From Schizochytrium sp. TIO01 (Eukaryota; Sar; Bigyra; Thraustochytrida; Thraustochytriidae), in contig SMSO01000006.1 of assembly GCA_004764695.1 (NCBI GenBank), positions 1,716,859 to 1,780,858 of the forward strand: a stretch of 64,000 nt of DNA, written 5' to 3'. A program made the translations under genes and the position numbers. Shown one piece after another: positions 3,166 to 17,381 of the stretch. Positions within the stretch are counted from its first letter, which is position 1, and every line of letters starts with the position of its first letter. The notes beneath the pieces are model-generated. The model was given only the letters and a program-made list of their open reading frames with translations. It did no database searches and was not told the origin of the DNA.

Positions 3166-6100
3166 CTACTGCAACGCCTGCCAGTAAGCTCGCAAGCGAA
3201 GAAACACCCGCTGAAGAAGTACACGACGGTGATGGGCCTCTGCTACAATATAACGACGCCCGAGTGTCGAGTAATAAGATGTTAGGGTTGCCCAACACGA
3301 AAAGTGCCTCTGCAGCCTTTTCTTGGTAAGCCTGCTTTGTAGAGTAAATTCATAAGCCTGGCTTGCTGAGGCTTCGCAGCGAATGTGCTGAAATGCAAAT
3401 TTTAGCTGTACGTGAGCCCACCTCTCGCTCATTGTACGAATGGCACTTTGGCGTTCTCTTGCAAGCTGCCTTGTGATGACTAATGCGTCCCAACCAATCC
3501 GCAATAGATGTGCGTGACGTGCATTTGCGAAAAATTCGTGTTGTCTACTTGACACAAGTTTCCAAGTTGAAAAGCTTTGCTTAAGTAGCCTCTGCTTGTA
3601 GTATTGCACGCTCATGTCATGCGACTGACTCCTCCATACTTGAAGAGCTCTCCATACTCGACGTCGTAGGAGCAAAGACCAATGACGTGCAGCACGATGA
3701 TTGTTTTCTTGCTCTGAAATAAGTTCCTGGCGTAACCGTTTGACTGTGCTGACACGTACGGCCCAACAAGAGAATGCCTTGCGAAGAATAATAATATGAT
3801 GTACTCCAAGACAGAATTGCTTCCAGACAGATTTTAACAAGAAATGCGTCGCCACCTTATTGTTCTCATCTCTAACTTTTTGAGACTGCACAGTAGTATT
3901 GAACCAAGCATTGACAACTTTCCGTAAAAGGTGCCTATCTCGGCATATTTGCTTCAAGGCAGACCAGTATTTACATAGTTCACGGTTACGTTCTTCAGTC
4001 ACAAAACGAGCAAAGCGTCGCCAACCAAAGCGCAGGAATACTCGTCGTAATCGATACTGCAAGACTCTATATTTCCAGAAAAGCCAATACTTTCGCTTTT
4101 GTCTATCAAATAATGTATTGGTAACCACTCGTATATTCTTGCGGTCTTCCACACGTTCACGAAAACGCTGCCATCCACACCTAAGTTGGAACTCTTTGAT
4201 GTTCCTAATGTGGTAGCTATTTGCTCGAGCTCGACTAACATTATCCTGTAACCGTCTGAGAATACGCTGAGCATGGCAGGCACGTTGCAAATACTTTCTC
4301 ACAAATATTGCATCTTCTCGAGAAGTTGTACATCTCTGTGCAAGTCCAGGTGCCACCGTTACAAGGTAGGAATACGCTACCTCCCTGCGTCGAAGTGCCT
4401 CAAGCGCAAGATTGCGCCATGTTTTGAATATGGCTTGCAAATGCCTCAATCGTTGTGCCAACCACTCTTGCTGAAGTTGCGAAGCTACTTCTATCCAATA
4501 TGAAAAGTATCGTCTGTAGAGGATCTTGTGTTCTAAAGAAGTACATATGTTACTAGCTGTTTGAAAGCGTTTGCAATACAGTGTATAACGCATCCAAATC
4601 TTAAAAGCGCTCCGTTGATGCACATAATATGCTAGTAAGTGAAAACAACGCTCCCGGACGAATCTTGGGTGGGCTTCAAACTTCCAGGCATACCAAAAGC
4701 GTCGCAATAGGTAAATGGACCACGTGCGAATGAGGAAATTTACCCGTGCATATCTCCACCAGCGCCAGAGCTCACGACGCTGCCTAAGTTGCCTTACATC
4801 GCCCTCTCGCTGTTTTAACCAGACCGATATCCGAGCATTAGCTCGAAGACGGGCTAAAACCTTTTGTTTATTCTCGACGCGTTTTTCGATTTTGAAACCG
4901 GCAACTAATACCTTCCGATGCTGAATCATGCGCGTGCGAATTCCAGGAAGAAGACAACGGAAACCATTTCGCAAATTCCACATCCGATGAAACTGATCCG
5001 AGGTACGTCTGTGTTTTTTTTCTCTGGTAAAATTAGTCCAACAGGATAAGCTCTGCCGAACCTGTACGTGTTGTAGACGATTTGAAGCAAAAACAACTCT
5101 TTCGGATAACGATCTATCTTTGCAGCAACGCAAACGTTGAAACGCTTGCCGTAATTTAAGATTCTGAAGTAAAGATTTACCTGTTTGTACCCGCTGATTT
5201 AAAGTTTGATGGGTACGTAACTTTTGAAATGCTCTTTTAGCACGTTTACCCTGTACGGCTTTTGCCAGAGTATTTTCACGATGACGGTGCACACATCGTT
5301 GCTTGAAGCACTTCATAGCCTGAATAAGTTTGCGTTCTTGTAGGCTTAATTCTATTTGTTTGGTCGTTGTGATAAAATAATGTTCAGCACGAAGTTGCTT
5401 CCATGCAACTTGAAGCCAGTAATGGCGGTACTGATTTCTAGCTTTGCTCTGGATCTCAGCATTAAGTTTGGATCTAGCTGCGTTAGCTTTCAATGTTCTA
5501 AGATATGTTCGCAAGCTCTGTGTATTTTTTTTGCCAATATATTTGCTGCAAATGCCTAACGTCGCTCGCGTACGATGGGCAGCTTCTGAATTCTTTTGTA
5601 ATCTATGAACAGACTTTTGCAAGCTATGATGCCGCCTAAATTTATCCGCTCGAGCTAAATACGTTTCTCTGCACCAACAGTCAAGGTATACTCGAAGGCA
5701 ATGACGGCGGCGCGCCTGAAGTTCGTCAGCCAGAATACTAAAAGCATAGTGTAGAGCTTGCCTACGTAAGATACGTCGTAGCTTGGTATGTTGCTGCCAC
5801 TGCCTAAAGATGATTCGCCTTTGCAAAACACTATTTTTATCTTTTGTTTGTTGAATACGTACAGCTATATTATAAACGCGTCGCCAATAATCTAGATATT
5901 TCCGTGCTTCATTGCGTTTACGGCTAGCGATAATAGAAGATGATAAGGACCGATAGTGGCGGCGTCGTGAAGCATGATGTCTTAAATCGTTAAAAGCAAT
6001 AGTGCATTTCTTGACTCGACAAGCTGTGTTCCAACAAATGACCTGCTGCTGTAGGAACATGCGATGTTCATGAGCTTTATTCCACCGTACCCAAGCAGAT

Positions 6101-7407
6101 CGTAGAACCCGATTCGTAAAGTAAAGATGCGCTAGCTGATGCTGTAGAAATGAACGACGCCATTGTGTAAATACAGGCCGTGCAACCAAAATAACACGAG
6201 CGGAGTGTAATAGAGCAGATTCATGTGCTTTTTGTTGTTCTATAAGATGCTGAAAGCTTTTAAATCCGCGAGACAAGAGCCTGCGACGTGCAATAATTCC
6301 GGCTCTTTGACTTTGCTTCTTAATGAATTGTACATACAAAGACCATAATGAAAAGCTAACATGTAGCATTTTAAAACTCGCGGCGGCTAAACGAAGGTTG
6401 TGCACTGCACGAGCTGCTTGCCGCCATCGCTCAAAATGAGCCAAAAGAAACCATCGTTCAGCGACAAGTTCCCGAGCTTTAGCTTGCCGGCATTGTATGA
6501 TAAAGCGAGACCATGCGTAAAAAAAACGTCGTTGTCTGATTTGTTGCATTATTGAGAGTAAGCGTTGATGGCGATGGCTTTGTTTTGTTAGAAAGGCTAG
6601 TCGCCTTAATGTTTTACGCTTACGTTGCAGCGCTTCAAATTCGCATAAACTTCTTTGGACTTGTCTGTAACGAGCATTTTTATACAACTTGCCAAATGCA
6701 TAGAAGCAGCGAAATTGCTCAAGCTGCAACGCTACATATCTTTCATATTTTAAAAATAATTCACGTTGTCTTCTTGTCTCGCGGTTGCTGATAAGCTTCT
6801 CCACACCCTTCTGAAGAAGTGTCCTAGTTCGAAAAACATCACATGCATCAAGAACAGTTTGCTTACGCTGTCTTTCATGAACACTAGCTAACCACGTTCT
6901 GAAGCATCGGTGCACCCTCCAGGCATCAACAAGAGCACAGCAGTGGGCAATAATAGGACGGTGAATTCTTGGTATTGTATACATACGTGGACCTCCAGTG
7001 GATTCGATCCAATTTAAAAGTGCTTGAATCTGCATAGGATGTCTCAAGACTGGATGAAGCATCATCTTTGTATCTCTCCACTCATGTAGGTAAGATCTTT
7101 GCATATTTTCTGAGAATTCCTCATCTTTCCATGAGGTTGACATCGAAAACGATCCCTTGGGACTTGCTCCTAAATATAAACTAGAATTCGTCTTCCACTC
7201 TTGATCATATCCCCCGCTACAATGAACTTGCGACGAAGCATCTCGAAATTCCGACGGCGTACCTATATCTATTAAGTTACCCACGTGTCGAACTCGACTT
7301 TCAGAGAACCTCCTTTGTGGCCATCGGGCATCCTCTTCATTTGACTCGGTAAAGACTTCCTTTGGGAGCTCGAGTAGACCGTTATGAATCCAACCTCGTG
7401 AGGTCAT
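3166..7407 (-). CDS. SFI1-like centrin-binding repeat protein
   Basis: A 1413-residue protein of tandem helical repeats, each with a hydrophobic/aromatic pattern ending in FxxW or WxxW followed by basic residues (for example FRTWLASVHERQRK, FYAWSRFIIQCRQ, FKTWRNLALEALRRRE, FSCWATLTSYYS), recurring roughly every 25-40 residues through nearly the whole length. This is the Sfi1 pattern: a long helix whose Trp-containing repeats each bind one centrin, at spindle poles, basal bodies or related fibres. The first 150 residues lack repeats and are Ser/Arg-rich. Very high Arg and Gln and very low Pro and Gly fit one continuous helix. ATG at 7405-7407; stop at 3166-3168. Convergent with the calpain gene, only 146 bp apart. 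Other Trp-rich IQ/coiled-coil centriolar proteins are an alternative, but repeat spacing and composition favour Sfi1. Function as a centrin scaffold is inferred. Confidence 0.82.
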   Translation of the reverse strand: MTSRGWIHNGLLELPKEVFTESNEEDARWPQRRFSESRVRHVGNLIDIGTPSEFRDASSQVHCSGGYDQEWKTNSSLYLGASPKGSFSMSTSWKDEEFSENMQRSYLHEWRDTKMMLHPVLRHPMQIQALLNWIESTGGPRMYTIPRIHRPIIAHCCALVDAWRVHRCFRTWLASVHERQRKQTVLDACDVFRTRTLLQKGVEKLISNRETRRQRELFLKYERYVALQLEQFRCFYAFGKLYKNARYRQVQRSLCEFEALQRKRKTLRRLAFLTKQSHRHQRLLSIMQQIRQRRFFYAWSRFIIQCRQAKARELVAERWFLLAHFERWRQAARAVHNLRLAAASFKMLHVSFSLWSLYVQFIKKQSQRAGIIARRRLLSRGFKSFQHLIEQQKAHESALLHSARVILVARPVFTQWRRSFLQHQLAHLYFTNRVLRSAWVRWNKAHEHRMFLQQQVICWNTACRVKKCTIAFNDLRHHASRRRHYRSLSSSIIASRKRNEARKYLDYWRRVYNIAVRIQQTKDKNSVLQRRIIFRQWQQHTKLRRILRRQALHYAFSILADELQARRRHCLRVYLDCWCRETYLARADKFRRHHSLQKSVHRLQKNSEAAHRTRATLGICSKYIGKKNTQSLRTYLRTLKANAARSKLNAEIQSKARNQYRHYWLQVAWKQLRAEHYFITTTKQIELSLQERKLIQAMKCFKQRCVHRHRENTLAKAVQGKRAKRAFQKLRTHQTLNQRVQTGKSLLQNLKLRQAFQRLRCCKDRSLSERVVFASNRLQHVQVRQSLSCWTNFTREKKHRRTSDQFHRMWNLRNGFRCLLPGIRTRMIQHRKVLVAGFKIEKRVENKQKVLARLRANARISVWLKQREGDVRQLRQRRELWRWWRYARVNFLIRTWSIYLLRRFWYAWKFEAHPRFVRERCFHLLAYYVHQRSAFKIWMRYTLYCKRFQTASNICTSLEHKILYRRYFSYWIEVASQLQQEWLAQRLRHLQAIFKTWRNLALEALRRREVAYSYLVTVAPGLAQRCTTSREDAIFVRKYLQRACHAQRILRRLQDNVSRARANSYHIRNIKEFQLRCGWQRFRERVEDRKNIRVVTNTLFDRQKRKYWLFWKYRVLQYRLRRVFLRFGWRRFARFVTEERNRELCKYWSALKQICRDRHLLRKVVNAWFNTTVQSQKVRDENNKVATHFLLKSVWKQFCLGVHHIIILRKAFSCWAVRVSTVKRLRQELISEQENNHRAARHWSLLLRRRVWRALQVWRSQSHDMSVQYYKQRLLKQSFSTWKLVSSRQHEFFANARHAHLLRIGWDALVITRQLARERQSAIRTMSERWAHVQLKFAFQHIRCEASASQAYEFTLQSRLTKKRLQRHFSCWATLTSYYSTLGRRYIVAEAHHRRVLLQRVFLRLRAYWQALQ

Positions 7408-7770
7408 CTTTAAACGTCTACTTCTAGCCTCACGAAGCCCCTAGCCAGAAGCCTCCACGGCAGCCGAGGGCCAAACAGCCCTCGAGCTGCCTCGACACGA
7501 CCTTTATCACCGCGCAAGGTTCCGTCAATAATTGTATTATTGTTCGGGTCTCGGGAGCATTGCCAATATGATTATATGATGTTAATATGACTTATTGAAA
7601 GAGCAGCGTGGGTCATTATTGACCTTGGAAAGTGCACACGAACTTGGCAACAGCATCAAAACCAGTGAGAAAGCAATCAACGCGTTGAGCTCAATAATCT
7701 ATATGTAGATTCATAGCTATCCTCAACCTTTCGAATAGATGTCAGTGCCTCCATGGGGGTATCATTTGGA
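7408..7770. other. Intergenic upstream of the SFI1-like gene
   Basis: 363 bases upstream of the SFI1-like gene and downstream of the small minus-strand ORF. No ORF, RNA gene or strong repeat seen. Presumably holds the SFI1-like promoter and the small gene's 3' end. Confidence 0.5.
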
Positions 7771-10950: not shown

Positions 10951-11865
10951 TTAGGCGTGATCTTTCCAATCAGTGATGATGAACTGTGTCACAAGATCCA
11001 AGAGGGTGAAGGCAATCATGGCCGCCGCAAGACTACTCTCAACAACGCGACGGAGGGACCACTTTTTATCTACAGTCTCATCGAGGCCGTACACCATAGG
11101 GAAACTTGGAATAAAGTAGCAGGCGTAGCAAAGGGCGCCCCAAGTCAAAGCCCACTCCATGTTCTTGTATGAAAAGAGGTCGTCGATCGCTTCCATAGTA
11201 GTTGCGAAGATCTCTCCCCAAGCAAACAACAGAGAGGAGAAGAAAACAGCCAAGCCTTGCATCAGAGCCGAATCGCGCACGTAAGGCGCAGTACGAATGA
11301 TGCGGATAAAAACGACGGACACAGCATGGTACGTAATGAAAAAGTACCAAGCATGCATGTACATCATAACAGGCACTACCTGTCGGCCAGTACCGACATG
11401 CTGGCTGTCAAAGTTCCATTTCAGGTGCGGAAACGCATACTTCATACCGAGGACATCAAAGAAGTACTCAGTGAAGAAGTAAGAAGCCTCAAAACCAAAA
11501 AGCCAGATCCACACGGAGAACTTGAACCAGTATGTCTCATACCAGGGTGCTTGCGTAGGGCACCAGATCCATGGTACAACAATGTTGGGAAGCGCGATGA
11601 GAATCGTAACGGCAACGTTACCTACATCACCAACCTTCAAGTGGTAACCCGAAATACACCAACCCACGAAAAGAGCAGCCCAAATTGGGGAGTAGATCAA
11701 ATACCACTTCTCCGTCCAGGCCTTTTCGGGGTTTGGGGAGAACACGCGCCATTCGACATCATTGGACTCGCTCACCTCCACACTCGTAACGTTTTGGTTG
11801 CCTCCATTGGCATTGGTACCTTTGTCCTTGTTCTTGCGCTGGCGCATACCCGCAGAAGAGGACAT
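10951..11865 (-). CDS. CPI1: Cycloeucalenol cycloisomerase (cyclopropyl sterol isomerase)
   Basis: Opens the 9,19-cyclopropane ring of cycloeucalenol to give obtusifoliol, the step unique to sterol synthesis via cycloartenol; acts in the ER membrane. Start taken as ATG 11865 (304 residues); the frame stays open to an ATG at 12030, but that extension is not family-like. Family matches: NPEKAWTEKWYLIYSPIW near the N-terminus; ETYWFKFSVWIW then YFFTEYFFDVLGMKYAFP in the middle, close to the plant YW.K..LWI and YFF.VLGA.YTFP segments; YACYFIPSFPMVYGLDE; and the C-terminal SLRRVVESSLAAAMIAFTLLDL. About seven or eight hydrophobic helices. The N-terminal 45 residues are Asn/Gly/Lys-rich and lineage-specific. 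It implies that cycloartenol-route enzymes (cycloartenol synthase, SMT) are encoded elsewhere in the genome. Confidence 0.93.
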   Translation of the reverse strand: MSSSAGMRQRKNKDKGTNANGGNQNVTSVEVSESNDVEWRVFSPNPEKAWTEKWYLIYSPIWAALFVGWCISGYHLKVGDVGNVAVTILIALPNIVVPWIWCPTQAPWYETYWFKFSVWIWLFGFEASYFFTEYFFDVLGMKYAFPHLKWNFDSQHVGTGRQVVPVMMYMHAWYFFITYHAVSVVFIRIIRTAPYVRDSALMQGLAVFFSSLLFAWGEIFATTMEAIDDLFSYKNMEWALTWGALCYACYFIPSFPMVYGLDETVDKKWSLRRVVESSLAAAMIAFTLLDLVTQFIITDWKDHA

Positions 11866-12920
11866 CTTCGCTCCAAGTCCAGTCGCTATTTGGCGTTTCA
11901 GTAGCAACGCAATTCCCTGGGCCAAGTAAAACCCCCACGAGTTACTATCTCTGCTCGCGCAGAATCCGCCCAAGTTATTACTGTTCTGGCAAAGCAAGGC
12001 AAAGCTTTCCTTTGTACAGGTTTGCGTCATTCAAGCTCACGCAATCACACTCCGTGCATTAAGGTGCATCTCCCGTGATCAGTGGCTATGTCCCATTTGC
12101 GGCTCCTCATAACCTACTTGTGCCCAGGTCACACTATGGCCTATACGTTAAGGCGGATGCTTCACAAGTCACTTATAGAGGGCCTCACAGTGGGGCAAAG
12201 GTTCTCGCGGAGCTGTGTAAAGGAGGGAATCGGAAATGGGTTATACATCGCGTGCAAGTGAGTTATAGCGGCGCATACAGTGCAGGAAACGGAAGATGCC
12301 AGTCCACGTAGCCTAGAGCGCCCTACGCTGGCTCGCTAGGAGACTCGTAGAGGAAAAGTGGAAAGGAAGAAGAAGAAGAAGTCGCGTGCTTTTGCTTCGC
12401 GAACCGGACGCGAGATCTCCATCTTGGACGAGTACAATAGCTAGCTCGCTAGCGGCAAGACGATTGCTGCAAACTCGTCTCCCAGAAGACGACCGCCTGG
12501 ACTCGAGGCTCCTCGAAAGCCTCGAGGCGGCTGGGCGACGACGCTGCGTGAACCGCAGCGTTGGCTCATCTTTTGGCGGAAAAGTGGTACCCGGTATCAT
12601 TTTTTGGGGGCTCCCCCGCGAGATTCTGGAGAATTGGGGCCAACCTGAAAGTAGGTTTGAAGGGCGAGCCTGCGAGCCTCGAGCATAGAAGTTCGCCAGG
12701 GTTTTGACTACACCCGTGAAGGGTGTACAGAAGAAGCTGCGTTGGTCCCCTAAGTTAATACTTTAGGGAGGCACCAGACCGGCTGTAAGTTAAAATTGTT
12801 TGTTCTGCAGATTATAAAGTCACAGAAGTAGCTGTATCTTCTTAAAACTCTGAGGTCAACTGTTAGGGGCTCGCCTGCAAAGTTTGCCCGTGAGCCTTGC
12901 ATTTTGAGTATTGCAGCAAC
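11866..12920. other. Divergent promoter/leader region with hairpins
   Basis: 1055 bases between the divergent cycloisomerase and kinase genes. Contains a perfect 9-bp inverted repeat (12502-12510 with 12518-12526, CTCGAGGCT/AGCCTCGAG) and a 7-bp hairpin (12709-12715 with 12721-12727, TACACCC/GGGTGTA). An imperfect stem-loop follows (about 12739-12776). An (AAG)n-like tract lies at 12366-12382. No ORF kept; the region likely includes both promoters and the kinase 5' leader. Confidence 0.5.
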
Positions 12921-15900
12921 ATGAATTCAGAGGAAAGGCGGCGCAGACTCCCGCAGTCTCGTCAACGTGCATGTGAACAACAAATGTTGACAGAACCTGA
13001 TGTCCACGAAGAACTTGAACATGGTTCGGGAGAAAATATGGCTTCCCAAGCAGATGAAGGGATGCATTCTAGAGGTCGAGTAGAACGTTCGAATTCAGAA
13101 CCCCTCATTACTACAGATGAGGCTGAGTGCAGAGATCCTTACCTCCGTGCCAAGGATCATCATCGTGGTATTTCCTTTCCGAGCCTTGTTGCGTCTCTGA
13201 GCGATCAATCCATTTCCGCAGAACCACAACGACATAGTGGGGACCTCCAAGCTCGGTTAAAGCGAGGCATGAGTTTTGCAAGTGTAGCAAACAATGGAAT
13301 ATCTAAAATGATTGGCAAAATTATGACCCCCTTGGGTCAGCGTAAAGCTCGCAGGAAACGTGCAAATTCCGAGCCACTATTTGTTTTCGAACCTAGCGCT
13401 AGTGACCTTAAAGACAATGCACCTATTCATGGATCGGCGAGCTGGCATGAGCATTCACCGGACAGTAATGTACCTGGTGGTGATGGCTTTGATGATGACA
13501 CTATTTCAATGGCTCCACTTCGACGTGGCTACAGAGAACCCTCTCCGGGATACACGTATTACGCGAGTGGTTTGAGCAAAATATTCAATAAATTGAAGGT
13601 CAAAGCACATGGCATTGATCCTAGCTTTCTTGCATCCTCTCAAAATGCTGCCAACTATCTTTGTTTTCGATACGACAGCCATGCGTTCTTGGAGGATGAC
13701 GAGCAAGAGATTGTGGTTGGCAATATCCTCAAAGTTCAAAAACAATGGTCTGAGCCGCACAACGTGATCCCTAATCAAAACAAGAGCGCGATGTCTGCAC
13801 AGAATGATTTAGCAGATCTCAATAACGATCATATGCAAACGGCTGAAAAGAACGCACGGTACCATTTTGTGTCGGTTTTGTATGAGTTAATTCTCAGAGA
13901 GATGCTTCTTCCTCCTTCAGTAGCACAAAAACTTTTGGAAACGCAGACATTAGCACAGAAAAAAATGCTTATTGAACAGCATCGCCAGCTTTGTACCCAA
14001 CGAGTGCTCAATGATGAATCACGGCGTGCACTTTATCGTGTTCCATCAAATGGACAGTCTGGGTCAGCTTACGCCTCGCTATCATCTATTGTATCACCTA
14101 TAGCAGCAGTGTTGCCAGCAGGGCCGTCATTAGCTGCTTCGGCGTCCTCAATTCTGGCCAAGGTTATGGTTATGAAGGGTCACATCTCCCCAAGGTTAGA
14201 TACCGCGCTTCCGTTGCGCGATTTTGAGCAGATACTCTGCGAGGCACTTGTCCGCCTGCGCACAACAGATCGCCAGGGCTTGCAAGAATTCGTCATTGAA
14301 AATGGCCAGTCACTTTTTGAAATTCTCAATTTCTGTGCCTTCCGAAAGCCTTGTCGCCAAGAGGAAATGGCCATTATTTCCCGAAGTCTTCAGTGCTTGG
14401 AAGTGATTACCAACAACAATTTCGGGATTCAACTGGTGCTGCGTTTTCCTACAGCGCTGGTTACACTCGCAGTTTGCTCCAAATGCGAGCTGCCAGACCG
14501 TTCGAATAGTTCGAGTCCCCAGATTGCCATTGATGGCGTAAACAATGCCATTGTAGCTTTGGAGGTCCTCGTGCGTTTAATGTGGGGCTTACAGGGTGGG
14601 TCACAAAAAGTCATGGCAGGTAAGTTATTTTTTCACAGTTCGGAGTGTTACCCGAGTGTCTCTATGGATTGTTATGTCCCAAACTATTTTGGGCCGAGCC
14701 AATGTGCACGGGCCCCTTGTTATCTTGAAGATCCAAATCGACTCACAGTTAAATTATGCTATCACTGTCTTGCGTGCATATTAAATATATGCTTTCCTTG
14801 CCGCTCCCGTTTCGCTCGCACAGCTCTCGAAGAAGTGGCCAATATCCGTCACTGTCTTGGTGGAAGTCTACTGCTGTTCAAATACAACTACCTGGACACA
14901 TCTCTTGCGGACGATCAACCGTGTTTGCTTGTGGAGCTCTGTCTGGGAATCTGTACCTTCTTAAATTCTCTTATTGAATTAGAGGATGAGATCCAGAGGC
15001 GGGAGACGATCCGAGCGGGTATTCACCGACTTCAACTTTTTCTCGATGCATCTCAATTAGCAGTGCATATGGCTAGTATTCCATGGCCCAAACCTTACAA
15101 GGGAAAACGCTTGCACATCTATGCTCGGGAGGTTGAGACACAACTTGAAATTTTCCGGGTGCGAGGAGCACGTGATCTGAGCTCAATCGTTCAAGAGCCC
15201 AATCTTGATGTATATGGTAAGCTTGGGGAGTTAATCACACCATCTTTGAAACATGAAGCAAAACCGACCGAAAACAATGATTTGACCACTCAAATAGATG
15301 TAGTTCCTTCTGAGAAAATGCAAGTCAAGTTGGCTCTGGAGCCACCAACGTCAAAATCTTCGTCTGCTTCTATTGCAACACCTTTAAAGTTGAGTACCCG
15401 AAAGGGAATGAAGATAACACATCCCTCCGGTCTACAAAGCAGTACATTGGAGCCTCGTGTATTTTCATCATCTTTGCCTCTGGGACAGACTTCAATGAAC
15501 CGATCAACTCGCCAGTCACTGTCTTCTGGTCTTCATCGCGTCCAGACAAGTGGTTTGCACATGAATGCCACATCAGCATCGCAGTCTACCGCTAAGCACA
15601 GGCCTACAAATAATTCTGAAAATGCGCAACAACAGACGCAGCGACGACGGAAAAACCCACCCCCTCCTCGACCACCGCACCCGAGGTCGCAAACTAATTC
15701 ATCATCGCAATCACAAGCTCCTCTTTCAACGCAACTCCCATCATCGTCATCCTTGCCTTTACCCTCTACTCTGCCCGCTCATGCTAACGCCACTCGATTG
15801 CCCTCTGCGAAGCGCACGAAGGAAGCGGGGAGTAAGATATCATTATCTCACGAATCCGCCCCCAGTACATTGTCCGTATCGCTCCCGACTCAATCGCCAG

Positions 15901-17381
15901 ATTTATCGGAAAATCAAGGAAAGCGACCAAGTAGACAGAACACGCAGGTGTTATTGACAGAAACATCGAGACTCCGCAAAACAGCTGGCACTCGAACCCC
16001 TGATGTGTTGGATGTTCCTGAGCAGAAACCACAATGGCAAGCTGTGGTTCAACTTTTAGCACGTGCTGATTTAGCAGCTTACGAGCGGGCGTTCTATGAA
16101 GAAGGCTTTGATACGCTTGAACGAGTCAGCGAGATGGATGCTGAAGACTTTGCAGCGGTGCACATGCGACGTGGGCACATCAAGTCATTGTTGAAGGTTT
16201 TGAAGCAAATCGAAAGTGTCGCACCCAACGTAGGGTGGGATGGGCCACAAACACCCTCCCCGCGGGCTCCTTGTGAACTTTTAGCCCAGCAGTCCTCCCC
16301 TCTATTTTCGAGCAACGAAGTTCACATACCCGTTCCAGGTTCTTCATCTTCACGGCCATTTGGATTCAAGGTCATTCCTAATGCGGCCTTGGTTTTGCAA
16401 GGTCTAATTGGGCGTGGATCATTTGGTGATGTACACTTGTGTGAATATCAAGGTGGGAAATGTGTTGCAAAGAAGATTCGCTGGGCACCAGGAGAACCTG
16501 TCTCTGTTGACGCTGACGTAAATGAACGGCAGCTCCAGGAACAACAAAAAAGACTAACAAACGAGGTCATTTTGCGCGAAGCCGAAACAATGGAAATGTG
16601 CAAAAATCATCCCCATGTTGTCACACTTTTTGGTGTGTGTTTGGATTCTCCTGGCAACCTTTTGCTCATCAGTGAGCTTTGTGAACGCGGCAGTTTATTT
16701 GACGCAGTGGTCAAGCCCCGCCGCTCAGCCTTTAACTTTCAAGAAACTCTTGAACTTGCTCGCCAGGGTGTATCTGGACTGGTGCATCTTCACTCATTAG
16801 ATGTTGTACATCGCGATATCGCTGCTCGAAACTTTCTACTTGATTCAAGAGGAATTGTTAAAGTTTGTGACTTTGGGCTCGCTAAGATTAAGCCTCGCCA
16901 GATGAGCGGCTCATTTGACCATTCAAACTCTGGTGACTCGGCACGCATAAACCCGCTGCGATGGGCGGCTCCTGAAAGTTTACGTGATGGCAAATATTCC
17001 CCAGCTTCGGATGTTTATATGTGTGGCGTGTTTCTGTGGGAATTGTGGATTCGGGAACAACCTTTTCGTGACTTGGAGCCGATCGCCGCAGCATTGCAGG
17101 TTCTTCAAGGGCAGCGCCCACGAATCGACGATGATCGATGCGCTGAACGCCCGGAACTAGTTGATTTACTTCAATCATGTTGGCGCGCGTCACCACTCTC
17201 AAGACCTAGCATGATCGAGGTTCTGGCTTCCCTTCGAACTGTTCAGCAAATCTCATTCAACACTTTGGAGGCAAACCCAAGTTCTCATTGTGCGAATTCA
17301 GATTTTGGAAAGAAAAACTCTGCCAAGGATCGTTGTGGACGCCCCGGAGTCATCCACCACGAATATCAGAACGGAATTTGA
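12921..17381 (+). CDS. Formin-like GBD/FH3 + SAM + TKL protein kinase
   Basis: Start ATG 12921 (an upstream in-frame TTG is not used). The ORF is 1486 codons, but 14620-14823 is probably an intron, giving about 1418 residues. The N-terminal third is disordered. An alpha-helical armadillo-like region (bases about 14200-15060) reads like formin GBD/FH3: FVIENGQSLFEILNF, SLQCLEVITNNNFGIQLVL, and ALEVLVRLMW...GGSQKVMA joined across the intron to ALEEV. A Ser/Pro-rich linker follows (PPPPRPPHPR). SAM domain at about 16033-16210 (LLARADLAAYERAFYEEGF). Kinase domain at about 16395-17240: glycine loop GRGSFGDV, Lys in CVAKK, HRDIAARN, CDFGLAK, WAAPESL, then DVYMCGVFLWELW. The HRDxAARN and W-APE forms are tyrosine-kinase/TKL-like. 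All catalytic residues are present, so it is probably active. Domain order suggests a signalling kinase tied to cytoskeleton or Rho-type GTPases, which is inference. Confidence 0.88.
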   Translation: MNSEERRRRLPQSRQRACEQQMLTEPDVHEELEHGSGENMASQADEGMHSRGRVERSNSEPLITTDEAECRDPYLRAKDHHRGISFPSLVASLSDQSISAEPQRHSGDLQARLKRGMSFASVANNGISKMIGKIMTPLGQRKARRKRANSEPLFVFEPSASDLKDNAPIHGSASWHEHSPDSNVPGGDGFDDDTISMAPLRRGYREPSPGYTYYASGLSKIFNKLKVKAHGIDPSFLASSQNAANYLCFRYDSHAFLEDDEQEIVVGNILKVQKQWSEPHNVIPNQNKSAMSAQNDLADLNNDHMQTAEKNARYHFVSVLYELILREMLLPPSVAQKLLETQTLAQKKMLIEQHRQLCTQRVLNDESRRALYRVPSNGQSGSAYASLSSIVSPIAAVLPAGPSLAASASSILAKVMVMKGHISPRLDTALPLRDFEQILCEALVRLRTTDRQGLQEFVIENGQSLFEILNFCAFRKPCRQEEMAIISRSLQCLEVITNNNFGIQLVLRFPTALVTLAVCSKCELPDRSNSSSPQIAIDGVNNAIVALEVLVRLMWGLQGGSQKVMAGKLFFHSSECYPSVSMDCYVPNYFGPSQCARAPCYLEDPNRLTVKLCYHCLACILNICFPCRSRFARTALEEVANIRHCLGGSLLLFKYNYLDTSLADDQPCLLVELCLGICTFLNSLIELEDEIQRRETIRAGIHRLQLFLDASQLAVHMASIPWPKPYKGKRLHIYAREVETQLEIFRVRGARDLSSIVQEPNLDVYGKLGELITPSLKHEAKPTENNDLTTQIDVVPSEKMQVKLALEPPTSKSSSASIATPLKLSTRKGMKITHPSGLQSSTLEPRVFSSSLPLGQTSMNRSTRQSLSSGLHRVQTSGLHMNATSASQSTAKHRPTNNSENAQQQTQRRRKNPPPPRPPHPRSQTNSSSQSQAPLSTQLPSSSSLPLPSTLPAHANATRLPSAKRTKEAGSKISLSHESAPSTLSVSLPTQSPDLSENQGKRPSRQNTQVLLTETSRLRKTAGTRTPDVLDVPEQKPQWQAVVQLLARADLAAYERAFYEEGFDTLERVSEMDAEDFAAVHMRRGHIKSLLKVLKQIESVAPNVGWDGPQTPSPRAPCELLAQQSSPLFSSNEVHIPVPGSSSSRPFGFKVIPNAALVLQGLIGRGSFGDVHLCEYQGGKCVAKKIRWAPGEPVSVDADVNERQLQEQQKRLTNEVILREAETMEMCKNHPHVVTLFGVCLDSPGNLLLISELCERGSLFDAVVKPRRSAFNFQETLELARQGVSGLVHLHSLDVVHRDIAARNFLLDSRGIVKVCDFGLAKIKPRQMSGSFDHSNSGDSARINPLRWAAPESLRDGKYSPASDVYMCGVFLWELWIREQPFRDLEPIAAALQVLQGQRPRIDDDRCAERPELVDLLQSCWRASPLSRPSMIEVLASLRTVQQISFNTLEANPSSHCANSDFGKKNSAKDRCGRPGVIHHEYQNGI
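14620..14823 (+). other. Probable 204-nt frame-preserving intron inside the kinase gene
   Basis: Donor CAG|GTAAGT at 14620 and acceptor CGCTCGCACAG| at 14823 after a pyrimidine-rich tract. The length is 68 codons with no in-frame stop, so it hides inside the ORF. The translated stretch is Cys-rich and unlike its flanks; splicing joins GGSQKVMA to ALEEVANIRH, restoring formin FH3-like continuity. Phase 1. Confidence 0.75.

Follow-up and report, generated by a model that had tools for sequence, protein, structure and literature searches.

Schizochytrium sp. TIO01 combines a formin-type GBD/FH3-like region with SAM and a complete protein kinase in one predicted gene

The window, as the whole analysed stretch of 64,000 nucleotides is called here, contains a forward-strand gene for which we favour, with moderate confidence, a function as a Rho/Rac effector kinase. 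The predicted product would consist, in this order, of a formin-type GBD/FH3 region, a flexible linker rich in Ser and Pro, a SAM domain and a TK/TKL kinase that is catalytically complete. The features, in window coordinates and residues of the spliced translation, are the following:

12921-14619 and 14824-17381, forward strand: exons 1 and 2 of the GBD/FH3-SAM-kinase coding sequence (1418 amino acids, spliced translation)
13299-13361, forward strand: speculative DAD-like segment ISKMIGKIMTPLGQRKARRKR, residues 127-147
13863-13991, forward strand: putative GBD G-subdomain helices LYELILREMLLPPSVAQKLLETQTLAQKKMLIEQHRQL, residues 315-357 (Drf_GBD match from 317)
13992-14195, forward strand: insert of about 65 residues (about residues 358-425) after the GBD helices and before the armadillo repeats, seen as an alignment gap
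14196-14477, forward strand: putative first armadillo repeats of the DID/FH3 region, LRTTDRQGLQEFV plus TNNNFGIQLVL, residues 426-519 (Drf_GBD match to 519)
14478-15074, forward strand: C-terminal FH3-like helices, residues 520-650, with the intron inside (weaker support)
14620-14823, forward strand: inferred phase-1 intron of 204 bp, without in-frame stop
15222-15998, forward strand: Ser/Pro-rich linker of low complexity; PPPPRPPHPR lies at 15657-15686
16020-16217, forward strand: predicted SAM domain, about residues 966-1031 (similarity to the Caskin-1 SAM, alignment with a paralogue SAM)
16395-17231, forward strand: TK/TKL-type kinase domain, residues 1091-1369 (PK_Tyr_Ser-Thr, E=1.8e-50)

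The coding sequence starts at the ATG at 12921 and ends with the stop codon at 17381, inside an open frame of 12894-17381 in the ORF listing of the window; the coordinates given by an earlier, sequence-only reading were correct. The motifs quoted there are also present, namely NNNFGIQLVL (residues 498-507), ALEVLVRLMW and GGSQKVMA/ALEEV, the last of these running across positions 14620-14823. This segment, which has gtaagt at its start and cag at its end, is best read as an intron. Its codon score is -0.12, compared with 0.11 +/- 0.05 (minimum 0.006) for exon stretches of equal length, and its removal rebuilds the VMAALEEV helix, which aligns with formins. As the presumed intron is in frame and free of stops, the domain fusion is independent of the gene model: even unspliced, a single unbroken frame of 1495 codons spans all the domains. 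Codon usage is coding-like throughout both exons. The gene model was read from the sequence of a single genome, and an assembly chimera or a model error could in principle have fused two genes; the unbroken frame and the coding-like exons make this extremely improbable, and fusion by the gene model was rejected on the single open frame. The order of GBD/FH3 region, Ser/Pro-rich linker, SAM domain and complete kinase in one predicted gene is confirmed.

The surroundings of the gene were also inspected. The divergent gene upstream (10954-12030, reverse strand) is without a Pfam match; it presumably resembles a cycloeucalenol cycloisomerase, which we take to be a sterol enzyme fitting the cycloartenol route. 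Further upstream, a 1424-codon open frame (3169-7440, reverse strand) has no Pfam match at E<=0.01.

The assignment of the GBD and first armadillo repeats relies on several profile comparisons. In an hmmscan of the protein, Drf_GBD (PF06371) covers residues 317-519 (E=7.1e-7); its 29.4 bits fall 0.7 bits short of the curated cut-off of 30.1 bits, while in a six-frame search of the 64-Mb genome the locus scores 31.9 bits, above that cut-off. The only other two Drf_GBD matches in the genome are true formins, both on contig C31. A profile made from these two formins plus FMNL1, FMNL2 and INF2, with the gene studied here left out, ranks the protein first against 2000 shuffles and all ORFs of the window (E=5.6e-11); for the stretch of residues 435-525, E is 1.8e-8. 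Alignment of the region with the formins of the same genome by hhalign gives E=4.8e-5, and when the GBD/FH3 region is used as a protein query against the genome, only the region itself and one of these two formins (E=0.001) are returned. The G-subdomain helices align with FMNL1/2 and with both formins of the same genome, and TNNNFGIQLVL corresponds to MNNKFGIKTML of mDia1. The helices had been said to read like those of the formin GBD/FH3 domain, which is borne out by Drf_GBD and by the independent formin profile. The domain was placed too late in that reading, at about residue 420; it begins near residue 315, and the quoted stretch left out the G-subdomain helices. Between about residues 315 and 519, the predicted protein is supported as a divergent homologue of the formin-type GBD/FH3 region. 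No relatives were found among viral contigs, and a phmmer search of the PDB with the GBD region alone gave no match. A single-sequence AlphaFold2 model of the GBD/FH3 region, with the intron read through, is helical only and has a pLDDT of 38.9, too low for comparing folds.

For the C-terminal half, the evidence is of another kind. Drf_FH3 (PF06367) has no match in the protein at E<=5 and none at the locus in the genome search. Of the profile families proposed for the region by the sequence-only reading, Drf_GBD matched with the borderline score given above, and Drf_FH3 and the armadillo families were unmatched at E<=5. The FH3-like helices follow the order and spacing of those in mDia1, FMNL and INF2, and on this account residues 520-650 are taken, with weak to moderate support, as a strongly diverged FH3 half. 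With a formin FH3 profile the segment ranks 3 of 5001 when compared with its own shuffles; in a Smith-Waterman-type alignment to mDia1, 8 of 500 shuffles reach its score. A generic armadillo or HEAT repeat with a convergent likeness to formins would agree with the Drf_GBD score lying right at the cut-off, with the unmatched Drf_FH3 and with an identity to formins of only 20-25%. However, hmmscan finds no armadillo or HEAT family in the protein at E<=5, the best matches are formins only, both in the same genome and in the profile test against shuffles, and the GBD helices, which are not repeats, match too. We consider convergence very unlikely; a generic armadillo domain was rejected for want of an Arm match and for the formin-specific matches.

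Beyond the GBD/FH3 region, the linker contains one PPPPRPPHPR motif, and no long FH1 is present in the protein. The SAM domain is similar to that of Caskin-1 (E=4.8e-6); aligned to the SAM of the paralogue that has the most similar kinase, it scores 81, the best of 1000 shuffles reaching 39. SAM_2 scores 17.5 bits in the genome search, under the Pfam cut-off, and is likewise under the cut-off in the protein search. In the AlphaFold2 model, the putative SAM domain forms four helices (pLDDT 63.7), with which Foldseek found no meaningful match. The kinase motifs are complete (GRGSFGDV, VAKK, HRDIAARN, DFG and RWAAPES), and the domain is apparently catalytically complete and active; a dead kinase was ruled out, every catalytic motif being present. 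The HRDIAARN loop is tyrosine-kinase-like. Most of the best matches in the PDB are to tyrosine kinases, and the TKL kinase CTR1 is also one of them, so that these sequence matches do not separate the TK and TKL classes. The earlier reading had a proline-rich linker, SAM and a complete kinase follow the GBD/FH3 region; profile searches support this order.

The kinase most similar to this one in the genome, with 35% identity and an HRDIASRN loop, is that of the paralogue L048 (C24:3201012-3202715), in which ankyrin repeats are followed by a SAM domain and the kinase. The two proteins share the SAM-kinase part, and L048 has ankyrin repeats in place of the GBD/FH3 region. From this layout, N-terminal modules have likely been exchanged on a SAM-kinase core, and the GBD/FH3 module was probably joined to such a core that already existed. 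Between its SAM and kinase domains, L048 has a putative CxC...CxH segment, SWIM-like by eye. FH2 is absent from the protein studied here up to E=5 (hmmscan); the genome's seven FH2 loci lie elsewhere, and two of them have a GBD/FH3. The second of these GBD/FH3 formins, L002 (C31:8108931-8112272), contains three DPKFxKYxxMxKAGLPEGAIENxMxxDGL repeats after its FH3, where FH1 is expected. The genome also encodes Rac-like GTPases, one of them at C31:590579, which are 80% and 65% identical to human RAC1.

Two observations concern the 18S rDNA of this genome. In a search of the genome with a conserved 18S probe, copies turn up at 40 or more sites spread across many contigs (L051, for example), some of them well inside large contigs. 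The minus strand of the L051 18S gene carries the site of the primer GGGATCGAAGATGATTAG. Among the papers searched, this primer is given only in three surveys, all of labyrinthulomycetes, which makes a labyrinthulomycete origin of the genome very probable.

In mDia1, we take N165/N166 to be GTPase contacts and N217 and A256 to be residues of the DAD groove. Cdc42, in its complex with FMNL2, is held by the armadillo repeats and has its switch regions read by three helices of the GBD, the second G-subdomain helix reading switch II (PMC4432619). As the same GBD and armadillo parts are found here, the most likely function is to bind Rac/Rho-GTP, and we infer that the architecture is best explained if a Rho GTPase controls the kinase directly. 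Like Cdc42 on FMNL2, Rac/Rho-GTP would sit on the GBD helices and on the concave side of the armadillo repeats, and would recruit the protein to the membrane or cortex; the kinase might then be switched on by release of an intramolecular block, or by FH3/SAM clustering. In the alignment, the FMNL2 contacts H222/R261 (PMC4432619) and the mDia1 residues N165/N166 are replaced; since these are not conserved, the GTPase partner cannot be named.

A GBD/FH3 region that is real by descent and has lost GTPase binding, serving the kinase as a scaffold for targeting or dimerisation, is a possible but rather doubtful alternative. It would be in line with the partial replacement of the GTPase-contact and DAD-contact residues, with the insert of about 65 residues that parts the GBD helices from the repeats, and with the targeting role known for FH3 in formins (PMC555941), whereas the helices that touch the switch regions of the GTPase, those of the G-subdomain, have been kept.

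The canonical DAD pattern (MDxLLxxL plus a basic run) has no match in the 1418 amino acids; the same regular expression misses the genome's own formin loci, so its absence here is not decisive. In the alignment, mDia1 N217 is kept and A256 is an arginine. Canonical DAD autoinhibition of the predicted protein finds no support, the motif being absent and A256 replaced. In the N-terminal tail, residues 127-147 resemble the mDia1 DAD in their hydrophobic spacing (0, +3, +4, +7) and in a basic run that begins at +14. This pattern occurs in none of 2000 shuffles and was picked post hoc; the segment is speculative, a lead only. A whole formin switch on a kinase, in which Rac-GTP at the GBD/FH3 would dislodge a basic, DAD-like helix of residues 127-147, overlapping RANSEP, and activate the tyrosine-kinase-like enzyme, seems unlikely to us. 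Two 14-3-3-like sites are present in the tail: RSNSEP at 13086-13103 is a perfect mode-1 RSxSxP site, and RANSEP (RxxSxP) at 13359-13376 adjoins the basic run RKARRKR.

If the proposed function is right, the GBD/FH3 is a portable Rho-controlled switch that is not specific to actin nucleation, labyrinthulomycetes possess a Rho-to-kinase route without CRIB or HR1 modules, and the logic of formin autoinhibition can be tested with an enzymatic read-out.

Kinases controlled by Rho GTPases are common, for example PAK, ROCK, MLK/MLK3, ACK1 and PKN. As proposed here, PAK, MLK3, ACK1, ROCK and PKN combine a kinase with a Rho-GTPase-binding module, and ACK1 also has a SAM domain and a tyrosine kinase; these proteins use CRIB, HR1 or coiled-coil modules, whereas a GBD/FH3 is present here. 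mDia1, FMNL1/2 and INF2 likewise have G-subdomain helices first and armadillo repeats after them, with the NNxFGI helix, but the protein described here is without FH1-FH2-DAD and has a large insert and a diverged FH3 half. The GBD/FH3 occurs in every eukaryotic lineage but plants and is regarded as ancestral; in chromalveolates, stramenopiles among them, formin domains have been rearranged in a burst (PMC2386819). In the kinome of Phytophthora infestans, armadillo and SAM domains occur on TKL kinases and there is a RhoGAP kinase, with no formin domain (PMC3019232). A GBD/FH3-kinase fusion was not found in a literature search; unpublished database entries may exist. Outside formins, the GBD/FH3 is known from RasGEF-L and RasGEF-V of Dictyostelium, where it is N-terminal on a non-formin signalling enzyme, as it is here; there the effector is a RasGEF, here it is a kinase, and the lineage is unrelated (PMC555941). 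The architecture had been called unusual, which holds for a formin module on a kinase and does not hold for Rho control of kinases or for a GBD/FH3 outside formins. The new point is the combination of a GBD/FH3 with a kinase, not either alone.
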